The translations under genes were made by a program, and so were the position numbers. Of a stretch of 64,000 bases of DNA, positions 5,805-22,585 are shown in pieces. The notes under the pieces are model-generated. The model ran no database searches, was not told where the DNA came from, and worked only from the letters and a program-made list of their open reading frames with translations. Source of the DNA: Kribbella sp. CA-293567 (lineage in GTDB: Bacteria; Actinomycetota; Actinomycetes; Propionibacteriales; Kribbellaceae); contig NZ_CP114065.1 in the NCBI RefSeq assembly GCF_027627575.1, positions 7,068,001-7,132,000 on the forward strand. The letters are read 5' to 3'. Each line of letters opens with the position of its first letter. Within the stretch, counting starts at the first letter, position 1.

Positions 5805-6261
5805 CCCTGTACGTCGTACGCCCACGCCGGCTCCTTCGTCGCCTGCTCCCCACCCCCCGGCTACCTCGCTCCTTCGTCGCTCGTCCCGCCGCCGCGAAGG
5901 CAAGGCGTGTCGGGGCGCGCGTTTATCCATGGCGGGAGCGTCGACGAGTTATCCAACGGCGCCTTCCGGGCGTGTGGCTACGCGGCGTCGCAGTGATCCC
6001 ATCGAACTTCCCCGCCCGGCGCGACAGCCCGAGAGGTTTCAGGCAGAGCCGGGCGCGGCTCCTCGACCGATTTGTCCCAACCCAGCCCGCGAACGTACCG
6101 CCAACTGCGGCCTCGGTGACAGCGACGGCGACGGCGACGGTGACGGTGACGCGAAGTACGGGTGCGGTACGGGCAGAGACGCGACGGCGACAACTCGTAC
6201 TGTCGCGACACATTCAACGGGCAGGCGCGAGCCTGCTCGAAACATCTCTCTCGGAGGACTG
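5805..6261. other. Gene-free stretch downstream of tRNA-Lys
   Basis: I see no supported gene in these 457 bases. The stretch includes two copies of GCTCCTTCGTCGC (5830 and 5866), two TTATCCA heptamers (5923 and 5949), and the hexamer array at 6115-6150. A ribosome-binding site GGAGG for the next gene lies at its right end. There is no integrase gene or repeated tRNA end to suggest a mobile element. Confidence 0.5.
6115..6150 (+). repeat. Six tandem hexamers (GGYGAC type)
   Basis: Six consecutive 6-base units: GGTGAC, AGCGAC, GGCGAC, GGCGAC, GGTGAC, GGTGAC. The array lies 112 bases upstream of the secreted-protein gene. If it is not translated it is a simple-sequence repeat able to vary in copy number. 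Confidence 0.8.
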
Positions 6262-6633
6262 ATGAAGGCACGTGCACTGGGGGCACTGGTAGGAGTCGCA
6301 GTGATGGCGAGCGGGGTGTTGGTGGCAACTCCGGCGCATGCCGTCTCGGCGTCGGTGACCTCGCCGGACGGCGGGGCGTTCGGGCGGGTGTACATCGCGG
6401 CCAGCGAGGCCTACACCCTGGTCGTCGACGACCAGAGCTGTGACGCGCGAGGGGCGACGCTGCACTACAGGGCTTCCATCGTCTGGCAGACGCTCTCGGA
6501 CAGCAGTTGCCACGGAGGCGATGTCGTCGAGGGGCCCTTCATGTCGACGGACCGGATCGACTTCTATGTGTGCAATACGAACACGCGCACCGGTTACAAG
6601 AGTTGTTCGTCGACGAAAACTATCCGCATCTGA
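6262..6633 (+). CDS. Small secreted protein of unknown function
   Basis: The 123-residue product starts with a clear Sec signal peptide: MKAR, then a hydrophobic run (ALGALVGVAVMASGVLVA) ending at T-P-A-H-A, with cleavage expected after about residue 28. The mature part has four cysteines (in DDQSCDARG, DSSCHGG, DFYVCNTN and KSCSS), so two disulfides are possible. I do not recognise a family. The ATG has a GGAGG ribosome-binding site five bases upstream. It is probably transcribed alone. Confidence 0.75.
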   Translation: MKARALGALVGVAVMASGVLVATPAHAVSASVTSPDGGAFGRVYIAASEAYTLVVDDQSCDARGATLHYRASIVWQTLSDSSCHGGDVVEGPFMSTDRIDFYVCNTNTRTGYKSCSSTKTIRI

Positions 6634-17660: not shown

Positions 17661-18071
17661 TCAGCCGGGGGTGATGCCGAACCGTGCGCGGACCTCGCCG
17701 ACCCTCGGCGTACCGTTGAAGCCGAGCGAGCCCGCCGCGACCACGATCGCAGGATCCTGGGTGGTGTACTTCTGCGGCGTGGACCAACGGTCCAGCAGGT
17801 CAGGGGAGGCGGCGAAAGCCCGCAGCAGGGTCTCCATCACGTTCTCGGCCTCGGCCTTGGTGTCCACGTCGAGCACGACAGTGCCTCGCTGCCAGCCGCC
17901 ACCGAACTGTTCGCTGCAGTCCCAGTGAGCCGACGCCACGCCATCGACCGAGTTCGCCACTGCCGCGAAGGCCTTCTCGCACTGGGACGCCTTGCTCGAA
18001 CACGCTACCGCGAACGGCAGCAGAAGCAGCGCGACGACCATGGTCGCCCCCTGCCTGACTCGCTTCGACAC
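17661..18071 (-). CDS. Small putative lipoprotein
   Basis: The 136-residue protein starts with a basic region, a hydrophobic stretch (MVVALLLLPFAVA) and C24, which fits a lipoprotein signal, though the lipobox F-A-V-A-C is slightly atypical. The mature part is soluble; three further cysteines are seen if C24 is excluded. I do not recognise the family. The GTG start has an AGGGGA ribosome-binding site. One copy of the SARP-type repeat lies 78-96 bases upstream. Confidence 0.7.
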   Translation of the reverse strand: MSKRVRQGATMVVALLLLPFAVACSSKASQCEKAFAAVANSVDGVASAHWDCSEQFGGGWQRGTVVLDVDTKAEAENVMETLLRAFAASPDLLDRWSTPQKYTTQDPAIVVAAGSLGFNGTPRVGEVRARFGITPG

Positions 18072-18148
18072 TGTGTCCCCTGAACCGCCGTAATGGGTGG
18101 CGGAAGTCGCCGATCCCCAACGCTAGGCGGTCAGCTCGTCAACGCTCT

Positions 18149-18167
18149 GCCCGTACTTCGCCCGTAC
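18149..18167 (+). promoter_or_regulatory. SARP-like direct repeat, left copy
   Basis: GCCCGTAC at 18149-18156 is repeated at 18160-18167, an 11-bp period, preceded by CTCT. SARP/AfsR proteins bind direct repeats spaced one helical turn apart. A nearly identical site lies at 21525-21543, beyond the start of the SARP gene. Confidence 0.6.
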
Positions 18168-18173
18168 CTCTCG

Positions 18174-21100
18174 TCACGGTTCGGAGGCACGAAGTGCGCC
18201 CAGGGCAGCAGTGGCTTCAGCTTGGAGGAGGTCGAAGCCGCACGTGGCAGCGATCGACTCGGCCTCGGCAGCGAGCTCGAGCGCGGAGACCTGATTCCCG
18301 GTGTGGTGCAGGGCCGTGGCCAGGGTGAGCAGCGCCTCCGTCTCGACGTACGGGTAGAAGCCGCGGGCGATCTTGAGGCACTTCTCGCCGTACCTGATCG
18401 CCGCCGCGGTATCGCCGAACACGAGATGGGCCTGAGCGACGGTCGCGACGGTCTGTGCCTGCGCTTTGCGGTCGCGACCGGCAATCGCGAGGTCGTGCGC
18501 GCGCAGGGCCAGTTCCAGGGCGGTGGCGCCTTCGCCGCGCTGCAGGTGCAGCCGGGCCAGCTCGTCCAGCGTCGACAACTCACCGCGCGGGTAGGACTCC
18601 TGCCGGTAGGCGTCCAGCACGTCGCCCAGTAGGTCCGCGGCACGGTCGATCTGGCCCAGTTGACGTAGCGCACTCGCCAGATTCCCCTGAACGATCAGCG
18701 GGGACGCCGGGCGGCCGATTCCCTTGCTCTGGAGGGCCTCGGCGAAGAGGTCGGCGGCCTCGCCCACCCTGCCCTGGTAGAGGCGCGTCATCCCGAGGCC
18801 GTTGAGAGCGATCGCCCGGACATGGCTGCACGACTCGTCCTGGGTCCACTCGATGGAGCGGCTCATCCAGTGGTCGGCCTCGCGCAGGGTCCCTCGCTCG
18901 AGGTGGTGCCAGCCGACCTGGTGGGCTGTGTAGCCGGCTGCCGCGGTCCAGTCGACGGCGACAGCGAGGACATGACCGGCCAGCGAGTCCGCCAACGAGT
19001 CGTCGTCGCGGCCGGCGGCTGCCAACGCCTGGCTGCGACAGATCAGCATCGCCACCTGCGCGACTTCGTCGCCGGCCTCGATCGCGGCCGCGCTACCGGC
19101 CTGGGCCACCTGCATCCAGCCGTCGGCCTCGCGGCACATCAGGAAGTGGCCACGGAGCTGGTCGGCGATCCGCCAGGACAACCGCGGGTCGCCGGAGGCC
19201 TCGTCCGTCACCACCGCCACCAGCGCACGCAACTCGTCACCCAGCCAGGTGAGGGCAGCCTCTTCCGATGCGAAGAACCTGTCCGGCTCGCCGTGGGTCT
19301 CGAGCCGGACGAGTTTCGGGTAGGCCCAGTCGGTCGCGGCCGTGACCGCTTCGGCGTACCAGGAGTGCAACCTCGTCCGGGCAGCGTCGGCCTCGCGGTC
19401 CTCGGCCAGCAGGCGGCGGGCGTACAGACCGAGCAGGTCATGGAACCGATAGCGATTCTTGGTGTGCTGCAGCAGCATGTTCGCCTCGAGCAGGTCCTCG
19501 AGGATCCGTTCGGCGTCGACGGCGGGCAGGCCGAGCAGGATCGCGGTGCTGTCGGCACTGAAGTCGTCGCCGGGATGCAGGCTGCAGAGCCGGAACGCTC
19601 GCTGGGCGTCGGGTCCGAGGTCGGCGTAGCTGAGCTGGAAACTGTTGAGCACGCTGGATTCGCCGAGGCTGAGCTCGGACAACCGACGGTTGCTGTCGTC
19701 GAGCCGGCGGGCCAGGTCGGCGACCGTCCACTCGCGGCGGGTCGCGAGCCGCGCGCCGGCGATGCGAAGCGCGAGCGGAAGGCGGCCACACGCCTCCGCG
19801 AGCGCCGCCACGTCCTCCGCGAGCGCGTCCAGCGATCGGGCGGTGGAGGTGATCAGCTGAGCCGCATCGGCGTGGGCAAGCGGTTCGAGATCGACGACCT
19901 CCGCCGCTACCAGATCCGGTAGTCGCCGTCGGCTGGTCACGATCACGTCGCTCCGGCCGGCGCCCGGCAGCAGGGAACGGACCTGTGCCGCGTCCTGAGC
20001 GTTGTCGAGCAGCACGAGGACGCGCCGGTCGGCGAGCTCGCTGCGGAACAGCGCGGCCGCCTCCGCCTCGGTGCTGATCCGCCTGGTGGGCACTCCGAGA
20101 GCACGGAGGAACCGGCCCAGTACCTGCAGCGGCGCCGGGGCGACAGCGTCCGCGCCGCGGAGGTCGGCGTACAGCTGGCCGTCGGGGTACTCCGCGTGGA
20201 GGTGATGGGCGGCGGTGAGCGCGAGCGCGGTCTTGCCGACGCCGGCGATGCCGTTGACGAGAACGGCTCGCGACGAGACAGCGCCCGGTCGCCTGAGCGC
20301 TCCGCAGATCGTCGCCAGCTCTTCGACGCGGCCGACGAAGTCCGGGGGTGCCGAGGGTGTCTGCTGGACGACGACCTGTTGCGGAGAGCTCTGCCGGCGG
20401 AGAACTGCCAACTGCACCGCACGCAGCCGCTCACCCGGATCGATGCCGAGCTGGTCGGCGAGCGCCTCGCGGATGCGTTCGTACGCCGCCAGCGCCTCGG
20501 CCTGCCGCCCGGCCGCCGCGAGGGTCTGGATCAGCTCCGCGTGCAGCGGCTCGTCGAGCTCGTGCCGCGACACAGAGCCCCGCAGGGCTTTCAGAGCCCG
20601 CTCCGGTACGCCGACCTCGCGGGCCAGCGCGGCGTACGCGCGAACGGCCTCGGCGTGCTCGTTCGCAATGCTCAGGTGGAGTGGATCGGCCGCCTCGGGG
20701 TCGCCACGCCAGAGCGCCAGGGCGTCCGCGAGCCCGGCCAGCGCGGTTTCCGGATCGGCGTCGGCGGCCTTCGCGACGAGCTCGCGGAACGCCAGCAGGT
20801 CCAAGGTCTCGGGAGTCGCTTCCAGCCGGTAGCCGGTCGGGCTGCTGACGATCGCCGGGCCGGACGCACCACCCGACTCCAGCAGTCGGCGTAGCCGGGC
20901 GATCCGGGTCCGCAGCAGGGCGCCCGCGTGGGCCGGTGGGTGCTGCGGCAGGAGAAGCTCGGCGAGCTCGCGCTGACCGACCGTCGTACCGGCGGCGAGG
21001 GCGAGGTGGAGGAGAAGGCTGCGCTGCGGCACCGAGTTGATGGTGAGCGGCGCATCGCCGTACCGGATTTCCAGCGGACCCAGGACGCCGATCCACAGCG

Positions 21101-21401
21101 CGCCGGTGGTGGGCGCGGCGGGCGAACGGTGGGACCTGGCCGCGGCGTGCAGCTTGCCCGCGTCGTCGCTGCCGAGCGCGAGAACCGCGGCGATGGCGTC
21201 GACCGAGTCCGGTTTCGGGCTCCTGGTCCGGCCCTGCTCCAGGTCACGGATCGCCGCCGTACTGAGTCCGGCGCGGTCGGCCAGCTCGCGTTGGGTCAGG
21301 TCCGCCTGCCACCGGAGGGATCGCAGCAGCTCGCCGAGCCGGCCCGGCGGCCCGTGGGCAGGCGCATCACCCGCGAAGTCGTGGGGAGACCGTCCGGACA
21401 C
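18174..21401 (-). CDS. AfsR/SARP-type STAND regulator (HTH + BTAD + NB-ARC + TPR)
   Basis: The 1075-residue protein has a clear domain order. An XRE-type HTH comes first (about 22-76: LRWQADLTQRELADRAGLSTAAI). An OmpR-like winged helix follows (about 100-190), then a BTAD domain (about 198-333). The NB-ARC ATPase has P-loop GIAGVGKT near residue 385 and VLVLLDNA as Walker B. The C-terminal part is TPR repeats. It resembles AfsR but adds the N-terminal XRE domain. A TAAGGT -10-like element ends 8 bases before the GTG start, so a leaderless transcript is likely. Repeats with an 11-bp period lie on both sides of the gene. The role, probably control of secondary metabolism or differentiation, is inferred from the family. 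Confidence 0.9.
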   Translation of the reverse strand: MSGRSPHDFAGDAPAHGPPGRLGELLRSLRWQADLTQRELADRAGLSTAAIRDLEQGRTRSPKPDSVDAIAAVLALGSDDAGKLHAAARSHRSPAAPTTGALWIGVLGPLEIRYGDAPLTINSVPQRSLLLHLALAAGTTVGQRELAELLLPQHPPAHAGALLRTRIARLRRLLESGGASGPAIVSSPTGYRLEATPETLDLLAFRELVAKAADADPETALAGLADALALWRGDPEAADPLHLSIANEHAEAVRAYAALAREVGVPERALKALRGSVSRHELDEPLHAELIQTLAAAGRQAEALAAYERIREALADQLGIDPGERLRAVQLAVLRRQSSPQQVVVQQTPSAPPDFVGRVEELATICGALRRPGAVSSRAVLVNGIAGVGKTALALTAAHHLHAEYPDGQLYADLRGADAVAPAPLQVLGRFLRALGVPTRRISTEAEAAALFRSELADRRVLVLLDNAQDAAQVRSLLPGAGRSDVIVTSRRRLPDLVAAEVVDLEPLAHADAAQLITSTARSLDALAEDVAALAEACGRLPLALRIAGARLATRREWTVADLARRLDDSNRRLSELSLGESSVLNSFQLSYADLGPDAQRAFRLCSLHPGDDFSADSTAILLGLPAVDAERILEDLLEANMLLQHTKNRYRFHDLLGLYARRLLAEDREADAARTRLHSWYAEAVTAATDWAYPKLVRLETHGEPDRFFASEEAALTWLGDELRALVAVVTDEASGDPRLSWRIADQLRGHFLMCREADGWMQVAQAGSAAAIEAGDEVAQVAMLICRSQALAAAGRDDDSLADSLAGHVLAVAVDWTAAAGYTAHQVGWHHLERGTLREADHWMSRSIEWTQDESCSHVRAIALNGLGMTRLYQGRVGEAADLFAEALQSKGIGRPASPLIVQGNLASALRQLGQIDRAADLLGDVLDAYRQESYPRGELSTLDELARLHLQRGEGATALELALRAHDLAIAGRDRKAQAQTVATVAQAHLVFGDTAAAIRYGEKCLKIARGFYPYVETEALLTLATALHHTGNQVSALELAAEAESIAATCGFDLLQAEATAALGALRASEP

Positions 21402-21524
21402 GGTCCGTACCTTACCGTCATCGACGGCTCACCGCAGGCCGCCCGGACCGCAGATCATTGCGTCAGGCAACAGTGCGGACGAGCTCGGCGAACGCTCTCT
21501 AGCGCGGGCAGAGCTCGTCGCTCT

Positions 21525-21543
21525 GCCCGTACCTCGCCCGTAC
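21525..21543 (+). promoter_or_regulatory. SARP-like direct repeat, right copy
   Basis: GCCCGTAC at 21525-21532 is repeated at 21536-21543 (11-bp period), again preceded by CTCT. GGGCAGAG (21506-21513) and CTCTGCCC (21521-21528) also form a dyad. The site lies between the divergent SARP gene (start 21401) and RDD gene (start 21580). Confidence 0.6.
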
Positions 21544-21579: not shown

Positions 21580-22101
21580 ATGAACAGGTATGTGAACCCG
21601 GTGGACGTCCTCGGACCGGACGTTGCCAAACGAGTGGAACCACTCGGCAACGGGCGACGGTACGTCCGCCCGGGAGCGTGGACGTTGTTCGCGTCCTGGC
21701 TGGTGGACTCGATGGTGGTCGGGGTCGGCGTGCTGGCCGGGACAGCCGCTCTCGTGACGGCACCGACTCTCGACGACGGGACGGTCGGGGTGGGCGTGAT
21801 CGCCCTGATCTTCGGAGTTCCCTTGCTGTACGGCGTTTTCTACGGCAACGGCCGGGCGCTCGGCGCGCTGCTGACCGGCACCCGGCTAGTTCAGCTCAAG
21901 GACGGCGGCCGCCCGGGCTTCCGGGGCCCGTGGGCGATGCTGGTGCGGGTCACGCTGCTTCCACTGCTGATCATCATGTTCCTGGTCGGCTCCCTGAATG
22001 GTGGCGGGACCGGGTCGCCACCCGGTTCGCTCCGCCGGGGAAGCATGGACGTCGCCCCCACCTACTACCTCTGGGCCGCCGAAGCCGCCGCGAACAGTTG
22101 A
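21580..22101 (+). CDS. RDD-family membrane protein
   Basis: The 173-residue protein starts with the RDD-type helix W-T-L-F-A-S-W-L-V-D-S-M-V-V-G-V-G, then LLYGVFYGNGRALGALLTGTRLVQLKDG, in which the second conserved segment is recognisable. Three hydrophobic helices are visible. The function of RDD proteins is mostly unknown; some are transporters. ATG 21580 is 9 bases after a TACGGT -10-like element. The SARP-type repeat lies 37-55 bases upstream. Confidence 0.78.
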   Translation: MNRYVNPVDVLGPDVAKRVEPLGNGRRYVRPGAWTLFASWLVDSMVVGVGVLAGTAALVTAPTLDDGTVGVGVIALIFGVPLLYGVFYGNGRALGALLTGTRLVQLKDGGRPGFRGPWAMLVRVTLLPLLIIMFLVGSLNGGGTGSPPGSLRRGSMDVAPTYYLWAAEAAANS

Positions 22102-22117
22102 CCGCTCACAGACGACC

Positions 22118-22585
22118 TCAGCAGGCGCAGGCGATGCCCGTGGGAGCGGTCAGCGGGTCCGAAGGGCGGCGGGTGACGCCGTCGACGGTCTCGACCGGCA
22201 GCCCTTCACGGGTCCAGTACTCCATGCCGCCGATCATCTCCTTGACCGGATAGCCGAGTTTGGCGAACTCGAGGGCAGCCTTGGTGCCACCGTTGCACGC
22301 CGGGCCCCAGCAATAGGTGACCACTGGAGTGCCCTCCGGTACTGCGAGTGCCGCACGCGCCGCGATTTCCCGGGTCGGCAGGTGGATCGCTCCGGGCACG
22401 TGTCCCTGGTCCCAGCTTTCCTGGCTTCTGCTGTCCACGAGAACCCAGCCGCCGACTCCGGCGCCGAGGTCTGCGGCGACATCCGACGGGTCCGTCTCGA
22501 AGGCGAGTTTGCCGGCGAAGTGAGCGATCGCCCGCTCCTGCTCGGCGGCCGCTGTCCGCAGTACCGCTGAAACCACCGTGGCCAT
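22118..22585 (-). CDS. Rhodanese-domain sulfurtransferase
   Basis: The 155-residue protein has a single rhodanese domain with LVDSRSQESWDQGHVPGAIHLP and the active-site loop Y-C-W-G-P-A-C-N-G-G-T-K-A-A. The first cysteine there is the likely persulfide carrier. The C-terminus ends in C-A-C. ATG 22585 has a GGAG ribosome-binding site 7 bases upstream. A prominent inverted repeat 64-104 bases upstream suggests that it is regulated. Its 3' end faces the RDD gene, 16 bases away. Confidence 0.87.
   Translation of the reverse strand: MATVVSAVLRTAAAEQERAIAHFAGKLAFETDPSDVAADLGAGVGGWVLVDSRSQESWDQGHVPGAIHLPTREIAARAALAVPEGTPVVTYCWGPACNGGTKAALEFAKLGYPVKEMIGGMEYWTREGLPVETVDGVTRRPSDPLTAPTGIACAC

Follow-up and report, generated by a model that had tools for sequence, protein, structure and literature searches.

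Streptomyces antibiotic regulatory proteins (SARPs) are known chiefly as activators of antibiotic clusters. In the sections of the SARP literature considered here, these regulators are described with antibiotic-cluster targets, heptameric repeats and four size classes, and neither an XRE-SARP nor a regulon of exported proteins is mentioned (PMC10972967, PMC5930380, PMC12224297). Among the open-licence papers listed by searches, judged by their listings, nothing was recognised as a GTACGGG motif, a SARP regulon of exported proteins or a study of a Kribbella SARP. For AfsR of Streptomyces coelicolor (structures 8jke, 8k60 and 8hvr), the sections drawn on here report that the SARP domains bind two 11-bp repeats between -40 and -19, engage region 4 of the sigma factor and offset a poor -35 element; that the NOD and TPR parts inhibit the protein, ATP relieving the inhibition; and that the 3' repeat of SARP sites lies 8 bp from the -10 element (PMC10936776). 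Here we describe a SARP with an additional XRE domain and a set of GTACGGG direct repeats in a 64,000-nt stretch of Kribbella sp. CA-293567 DNA (hereafter the window: positions 7068001-7132000 of the single-contig 7.61-Mb genome). The repeats and this XRE-SARP subfamily are probably one control system for exported proteins in the genus, because the motif precedes secreted-protein genes and is nearly exclusive to species with this type of SARP. Judging from sequence, we give a probability of roughly 75% to the reading that a dedicated promoter has these repeats as its activator-binding part and that the activator is most likely the XRE-SARP from the gene at 18174-21401 or one of its orthologues.

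The regulator gene (18174..21401, minus strand) encodes 1075 amino acids (aa), with an XRE domain (HTH_31) followed by a SARP DNA-binding domain, BTAD, NB-ARC and TPR. In Pfam, BTAD scores 80.1 bits (cut-off 22.1), NB-ARC 28.8 bits (cut-off 23.5) and TPR_12 37.9 bits (cut-off 30.1); Trans_reg_C was not reported for this protein at E 0.001. The order expected of the SARP family, an OmpR-type DNA-binding domain and then BTAD, is indicated by the BTAD score and by an alignment to AfsR that begins at residue 97, and the C-terminal NB-ARC and TPR domains are those of large SARPs. Against the AfsR equivalog model NF053617 of NCBIfam the protein reaches 430.9 of 1430 bits, below the cut-off. By its predicted domains it is thus a large SARP and not AfsR; the placement of these domains rests on homology to the solved AfsR. 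The genome of this strain (G000) encodes a second SARP of the same subfamily (C1:3528176-3531373; L151, L221), with 65% identity, and no site was detected in the region surrounding the upstream end of its gene.

The preliminary description of this DNA had reported perfect GCCCGTAC-n3-GCCCGTAC pairs (18149-18167 and 21525-21543) that each follow a CTCT and together flank the regulator open reading frame (ORF) on both sides, and all of this was confirmed. By sequence the repeats behave as a promoter element whose functional reading lies on the strand opposite to the one first described. On the minus strand both copies read GTACGGGC-n3-GTACGGGC-AG, with a -10-like hexamer 23 nt further on: the left repeat (GTACGGGC-GAA-GTACGGGC, 18149..18167) is followed by TAGCGT at 18120..18125, and the right repeat (GTACGGGC-GAG-GTACGGGC, 21525..21543), upstream of the regulator gene, by TAGAGA at 21496..21501, the last base of which is off consensus. 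A third repeat with one mismatch, GTACGGGT-GCG-GTACGGGC (6156..6174, plus strand), had been missed; it has TACTGT at the same 23-nt distance (6198..6203, plus strand). Allowing up to three mismatches, the window contains seven repeat-pair matches, compared with a mean of 1.59 in shuffled sequence, and seven were reached by 0 of 100 shuffles. A position matrix trained on 88 genus sites (described below), which include the three in the window, scores these three at 58.4 bits (6156), 46.8 bits (the whole left promoter, 18120-18167) and 33.2 bits (right); no position in ten Markov shuffles of the window scored above 5 bits. With its poor -10, the right promoter, which faces the regulator gene, is predicted to be weak.

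These repeats extend well beyond the window. The whole genome contains six exact and five one-mismatch copies of the octamer pair, and 33 copies with up to two mismatches, compared with 13 for a reversed-pattern control. Requiring the second repeat to be followed by CAG in the functional orientation left ten exact sites (control, 0). An eleventh octamer-pair match with at most one mismatch, at genome position 3080776, was dropped as chance, as it has no AG after the repeat and lies inside long open frames. The exact motif, GTACGGG-n4-GTACGGGCAG, has these ten copies in the genome (reversed control, 0) and 88 in 38 genomes of the genus (control, 1). Direct repeats with an 11-bp period in promoters, as expected of SARP sites, are thus present as GTACGGGY-n3-GTACGGGC at 88 genus sites, which are putative targets. 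The system had been described as a small local circuit; that view was abandoned, as the genome has ten sites and the genus 88, most of them ahead of genes whose products are exported.

Once oriented, the good sites share the pattern GTACGGGY-Gnn-GTACGGGC-AG, with TAnnnT 21 nt on and no good -35 box. In the genome under study, TAnnnT stands exactly 23 nt past the second repeat in seven of ten sites, and the hexamers of the other three are one base off. Across the genus it is found at +23 in 71 of 88 sites, and of the other 49 offsets scanned two have a single match each; 11 of the remaining 17 sites have CAnnnT there (counted by eye). Since the 88 sites are not independent, they were placed in 27 groups by related downstream protein or similar DNA, and with one site per group TAnnnT is at +23 in 23 of 27. 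Numbering the first base of the -10 hexamer as -12, the 27 groups also show conservation outside the columns used for searching, with G in 85% at -32, C or T in 100% at -28 and G in 89% at -27.

Downstream genes are predominantly those of exported proteins. For 86 of the 88 sites, scanning for coding potential identified an ORF downstream. A crude signal-peptide and membrane rule flagged 77 of these 86 as exported or membrane proteins; applied to the 57 genes called within the window, it flagged 14 (p 1.3e-15). Some individual assignments need qualification: the flag for L117 is false (this is the SARP itself), the start first chosen for L148 is doubtful and an alternative gives a membrane-like N-terminus, and the results for L114 and L129 are those of the second gene, the first coding for a small Cys-rich peptide. 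The second site of L046 appears to lack an ORF as an effect of the locus end, a gene being present there in L065; no downstream ORF was found for L055. The 86 proteins fall into 30 sequence clusters. Pfam was sampled with 10 of the 86 proteins plus two further sequences. The largest cluster holds 20 small, mostly exported proteins, and the one submitted in full has PG_binding_1. A cluster of 17 consists of members of a 292-aa exported family with no Pfam match; sites lie 85-153 nt upstream of this family in 18 of 30 loci, and its copies in two genomes lacking the SARP subfamily (G018 and G030) have no site upstream, a number too small for a test. In the window, the left promoter precedes a gene for a 136-aa lipoprotein (17661..18071, minus strand; its lipobox found both by inspection and with the crude rule), and the third promoter precedes one for an exported 123-aa protein (6262..6633, plus strand; signal peptide by the crude rule); neither protein has a Pfam family. 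The SARP gene itself is downstream of three of the 88 sites (G000, G003 and G010).

The distribution of the motif follows that of the SARP subfamily. Across the order, 293 genomes were scanned for the exact motif, which is present in 19 of the 38 from the genus and in none of the 255 sampled elsewhere. Among the matches listed, the subfamily is present in 20 of the 38 genus genomes, in one of them (G007) as a fragment only; long matches in these relatives have 59-75% identity, and the next matches listed score below 360 bits with 45% identity or less. The exact motif is found in 19 of the 20 carriers so defined and in 0 of the 18 non-carriers (Fisher 1.1e-9), and in the twentieth carrier, G036, a site with one mismatch is located where its SARP gene ends. 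Other SARPs (E up to 1e-60) are present in at least 15 of the 18 non-carriers, and the motif is therefore tied to the XRE-SARP subfamily rather than to SARPs generally. On an rpoB tree the SARP state changes seven times; in five independent pairs separated by well-supported branches the motif changes in the same direction in 4.7 on average (5.0 with G036 counted) and never in the opposite one. Further afield, when the best three candidates were scored in each of 246 genomes from the class, only the genome containing the window gave a match at E 1e-130, and a search for related loci in genome contigs gave a single distant Kutzneria locus (32% identity), which was uninformative. The preliminary description had named absence of the repeat beside orthologous genes in related species as grounds for rejecting it; this absence was not observed, since 11 of 20 genomes have a site no more than 1.5 kb from the main SARP copy. 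The broader link it drew between 11-bp repeats and SARPs holds for the tie to the subfamily and for the promoter-like character of the repeats; that the SARP itself binds them is what we infer from the sequences.

Several observations weigh against the SARP as the activator. Nine of the 20 genomes yielded no site closer than 1.5 kb to the SARP gene (two of these nine loci, L079 and L092, are cut short or broken). The sign test on the independent pairs gives p 0.0625, which is the lowest value reachable with five pairs. The SARP copy of G020 has an in-frame stop. Five one-mismatch matches occur in four of the 18 non-carriers, at about the control rate; as five is also the control number over all 38 genomes, these were taken as background. 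G007 keeps two exact sites and holds only a broken SARP remnant (C27:104000-112500, L222), whose pieces correspond to residues 338-507 (split over two frames) and 607-1009; for the XRE, DNA-binding and BTAD parts no close counterpart was found anywhere in that genome. Recounting G007 as a non-carrier changes the Fisher value to 2e-8. One of its two target genes (C2:300996-304016, L065) encodes an exported protein and appears frameshifted. The SARP of G007 was likely lost recently, because this target gene looks frameshifted too, and its regulon is perhaps in decay. Finally, the repeats end 23 nt before the -10 element, compared with the 8 bp stated for SARP sites.

The strongest rival explanation, which we regard as improbable and still worth serious weight, is that another co-inherited regulator, for example a response regulator of the OmpR/PhoP type, reads the repeats and that the SARP gene is only one of its targets. 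Direct repeats of 11 bp just upstream of -35 also fit OmpR-type regulators, the SARP gene is the direct target of as few as 3 of the 88 sites, and G007 keeps its sites with a broken SARP. This explanation is opposed by the near-complete agreement between motif and subfamily (19 of 20 carriers, exact in no non-carrier), by the clustering of sites at SARP loci and by the downstream genes themselves, among whose 30 clusters no other regulator appeared. That the repeats belong to a dispersed repeat or a duplicated segment with no regulatory role is very unlikely: some sites do share longer flanks by duplication (window 6156 with genome 5670137; L141 with L142), but the TAnnnT spacing is fixed over 27 unrelated groups though the letters between vary, and the sites face genes of 30 sequence clusters, mostly for exported proteins. 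In the first of these pairs, the site at C1:5670137-5670184 (L034) has no clear exported ORF behind it and is possibly a dead duplicate of the window 6156 site. Chance matches in a high-GC genome can practically be dismissed, since loose matches are common (22 with two mismatches among the 33 in the genome, against 13 in the control) but exact sites number 10 versus 0 in this genome, 88 versus 1 in the genus and none in 255 genomes elsewhere in the order.

Taking the XRE-SARP as the activator, its action can be pictured by analogy with AfsR. The NB-ARC and TPR part would hold the regulator in an inactive state from which a signal and ATP free it; two protomers would then occupy the two repeats, one helical turn apart, and would recruit RNA polymerase to an otherwise weak promoter. 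As the positions of the sites show, the output would be a set of scattered genes, most of which encode exported proteins, lipoproteins among them, and which in certain species include the regulator gene. Compared with known SARP sites, the GTACGGG repeats are displaced upstream by approximately 15 bp, to about -54 to -36, and two arrangements could account for this. Either the SARP domains bind at the GTACGGG repeats, in a more class-II-like geometry, or the XRE domains occupy these near-invariant repeats and the SARP domains a degenerate repeat at their usual place, between -40 and -19. We consider the latter arrangement doubtful, a minority option. The degenerate repeat proposed for the SARP domains has G-n-C at -38/-36 and -27/-25, the places of AfsR base contacts. 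The presumed XRE recognition helix has a mean identity to the window protein of 0.86, compared with 0.68 for the presumed SARP helix, the limits of both helices being assumed. The 11-bp periodicity of this third, degenerate repeat between the GTACGGG units and the -10 was not significant (p 0.11, lag 17 exceeding lag 11), nor was a second test at the usual SARP place (median p 0.08), and the repeat was kept as a hint only. Were the XRE domain the one that reads the repeats, SARP specificity would have moved to an added domain, running a genus-specific regulon of exported proteins.

The gene divergent from the regulator (21580..22101, plus strand) is membrane-like and lies behind the right promoter. 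It had been labelled an RDD gene, for which neither Pfam (E up to 0.01) nor NCBIfam (E up to 0.001) gave support, and no site in the window points at it; the proposal that the repeats lie upstream of the flanking genes thus holds for the lipoprotein and SARP genes and fails for this one. A homologue stands beside the SARP gene in five other genomes (G003, G010, G025, G028 and G035). The gene may be part of the circuit in some species, because in G028 alone a site (L056) points at the homologue. A rhodanese-domain gene follows downstream (22118-22585, minus strand).

Further observations concern individual targets elsewhere. A target with a peptidase-inhibitor I36 domain (G000, C1:55747-55794, L031) has its start codon 7 nt past the -10 hexamer, a distance that suggests a leaderless transcript; called starts within 13 nt of the hexamer number 4 of 86. 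Behind four sites (L054, L114, L129 and L144, in G025, G001, G021 and G031) is a gene for a Cys-rich peptide of 69-70 aa (MTKLIQRMSDGLL...), followed in L114 and L129 by one for a MauE-like membrane protein (MauE, 88.3 bits for that of L114). The pair is reminiscent of methylamine-dehydrogenase or redox-peptide systems, and may represent a secreted system of small size with a redox or peptide function.

The system described here is a variant of known SARP systems by its operator position, its added domain and its targets. Like OmpR/PhoP-type response regulators, it has 11-bp tandem direct repeats at an activator position; unlike these, the linked regulator has no receiver domain in Pfam. It shares with AfsR the SARP domain, BTAD, NB-ARC and TPR, in the same order over residues 97-998, as well as two 11-bp direct repeats and a poor -35 element. 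The base-contacting T88 and R92 of AfsR correspond to T165 and R169, which are unchanged in 17 of 17 aligned copies (those with stops, splits or breaks being left out). In contrast to AfsR, the window protein has an extra N-terminal XRE domain, the repeat is GTACGGGY rather than CGTT(T/C)ATCG and stands approximately 15 bp further upstream, with 23 nt to the -10 in 71 of 88 sites rather than the 8 bp of the family, and the targets are mostly exported proteins: the ten scattered sites of this genome, mostly before genes for such proteins, depart from the antibiotic clusters usual for SARPs. SARP-LAL regulators such as PimR also have direct repeats with a period of approximately 11 bp, and, in the sections considered, the main operator of PimR is likewise one that does not overlap the -35 (PMC5930380). 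PimR, however, has a single target gene, located in an antibiotic cluster, and carries a large ATPase part of the LuxR type, whereas the system here is genome-wide, with NB-ARC and TPR domains together with XRE. A large SARP is thus tied by sequence to scattered exported proteins, several without a known family, and the non-carrier genomes provide a built-in control. It offers a candidate regulon of secreted proteins together with its putative operator and a likely sensor of the STAND type that has two candidate DNA-binding modules.

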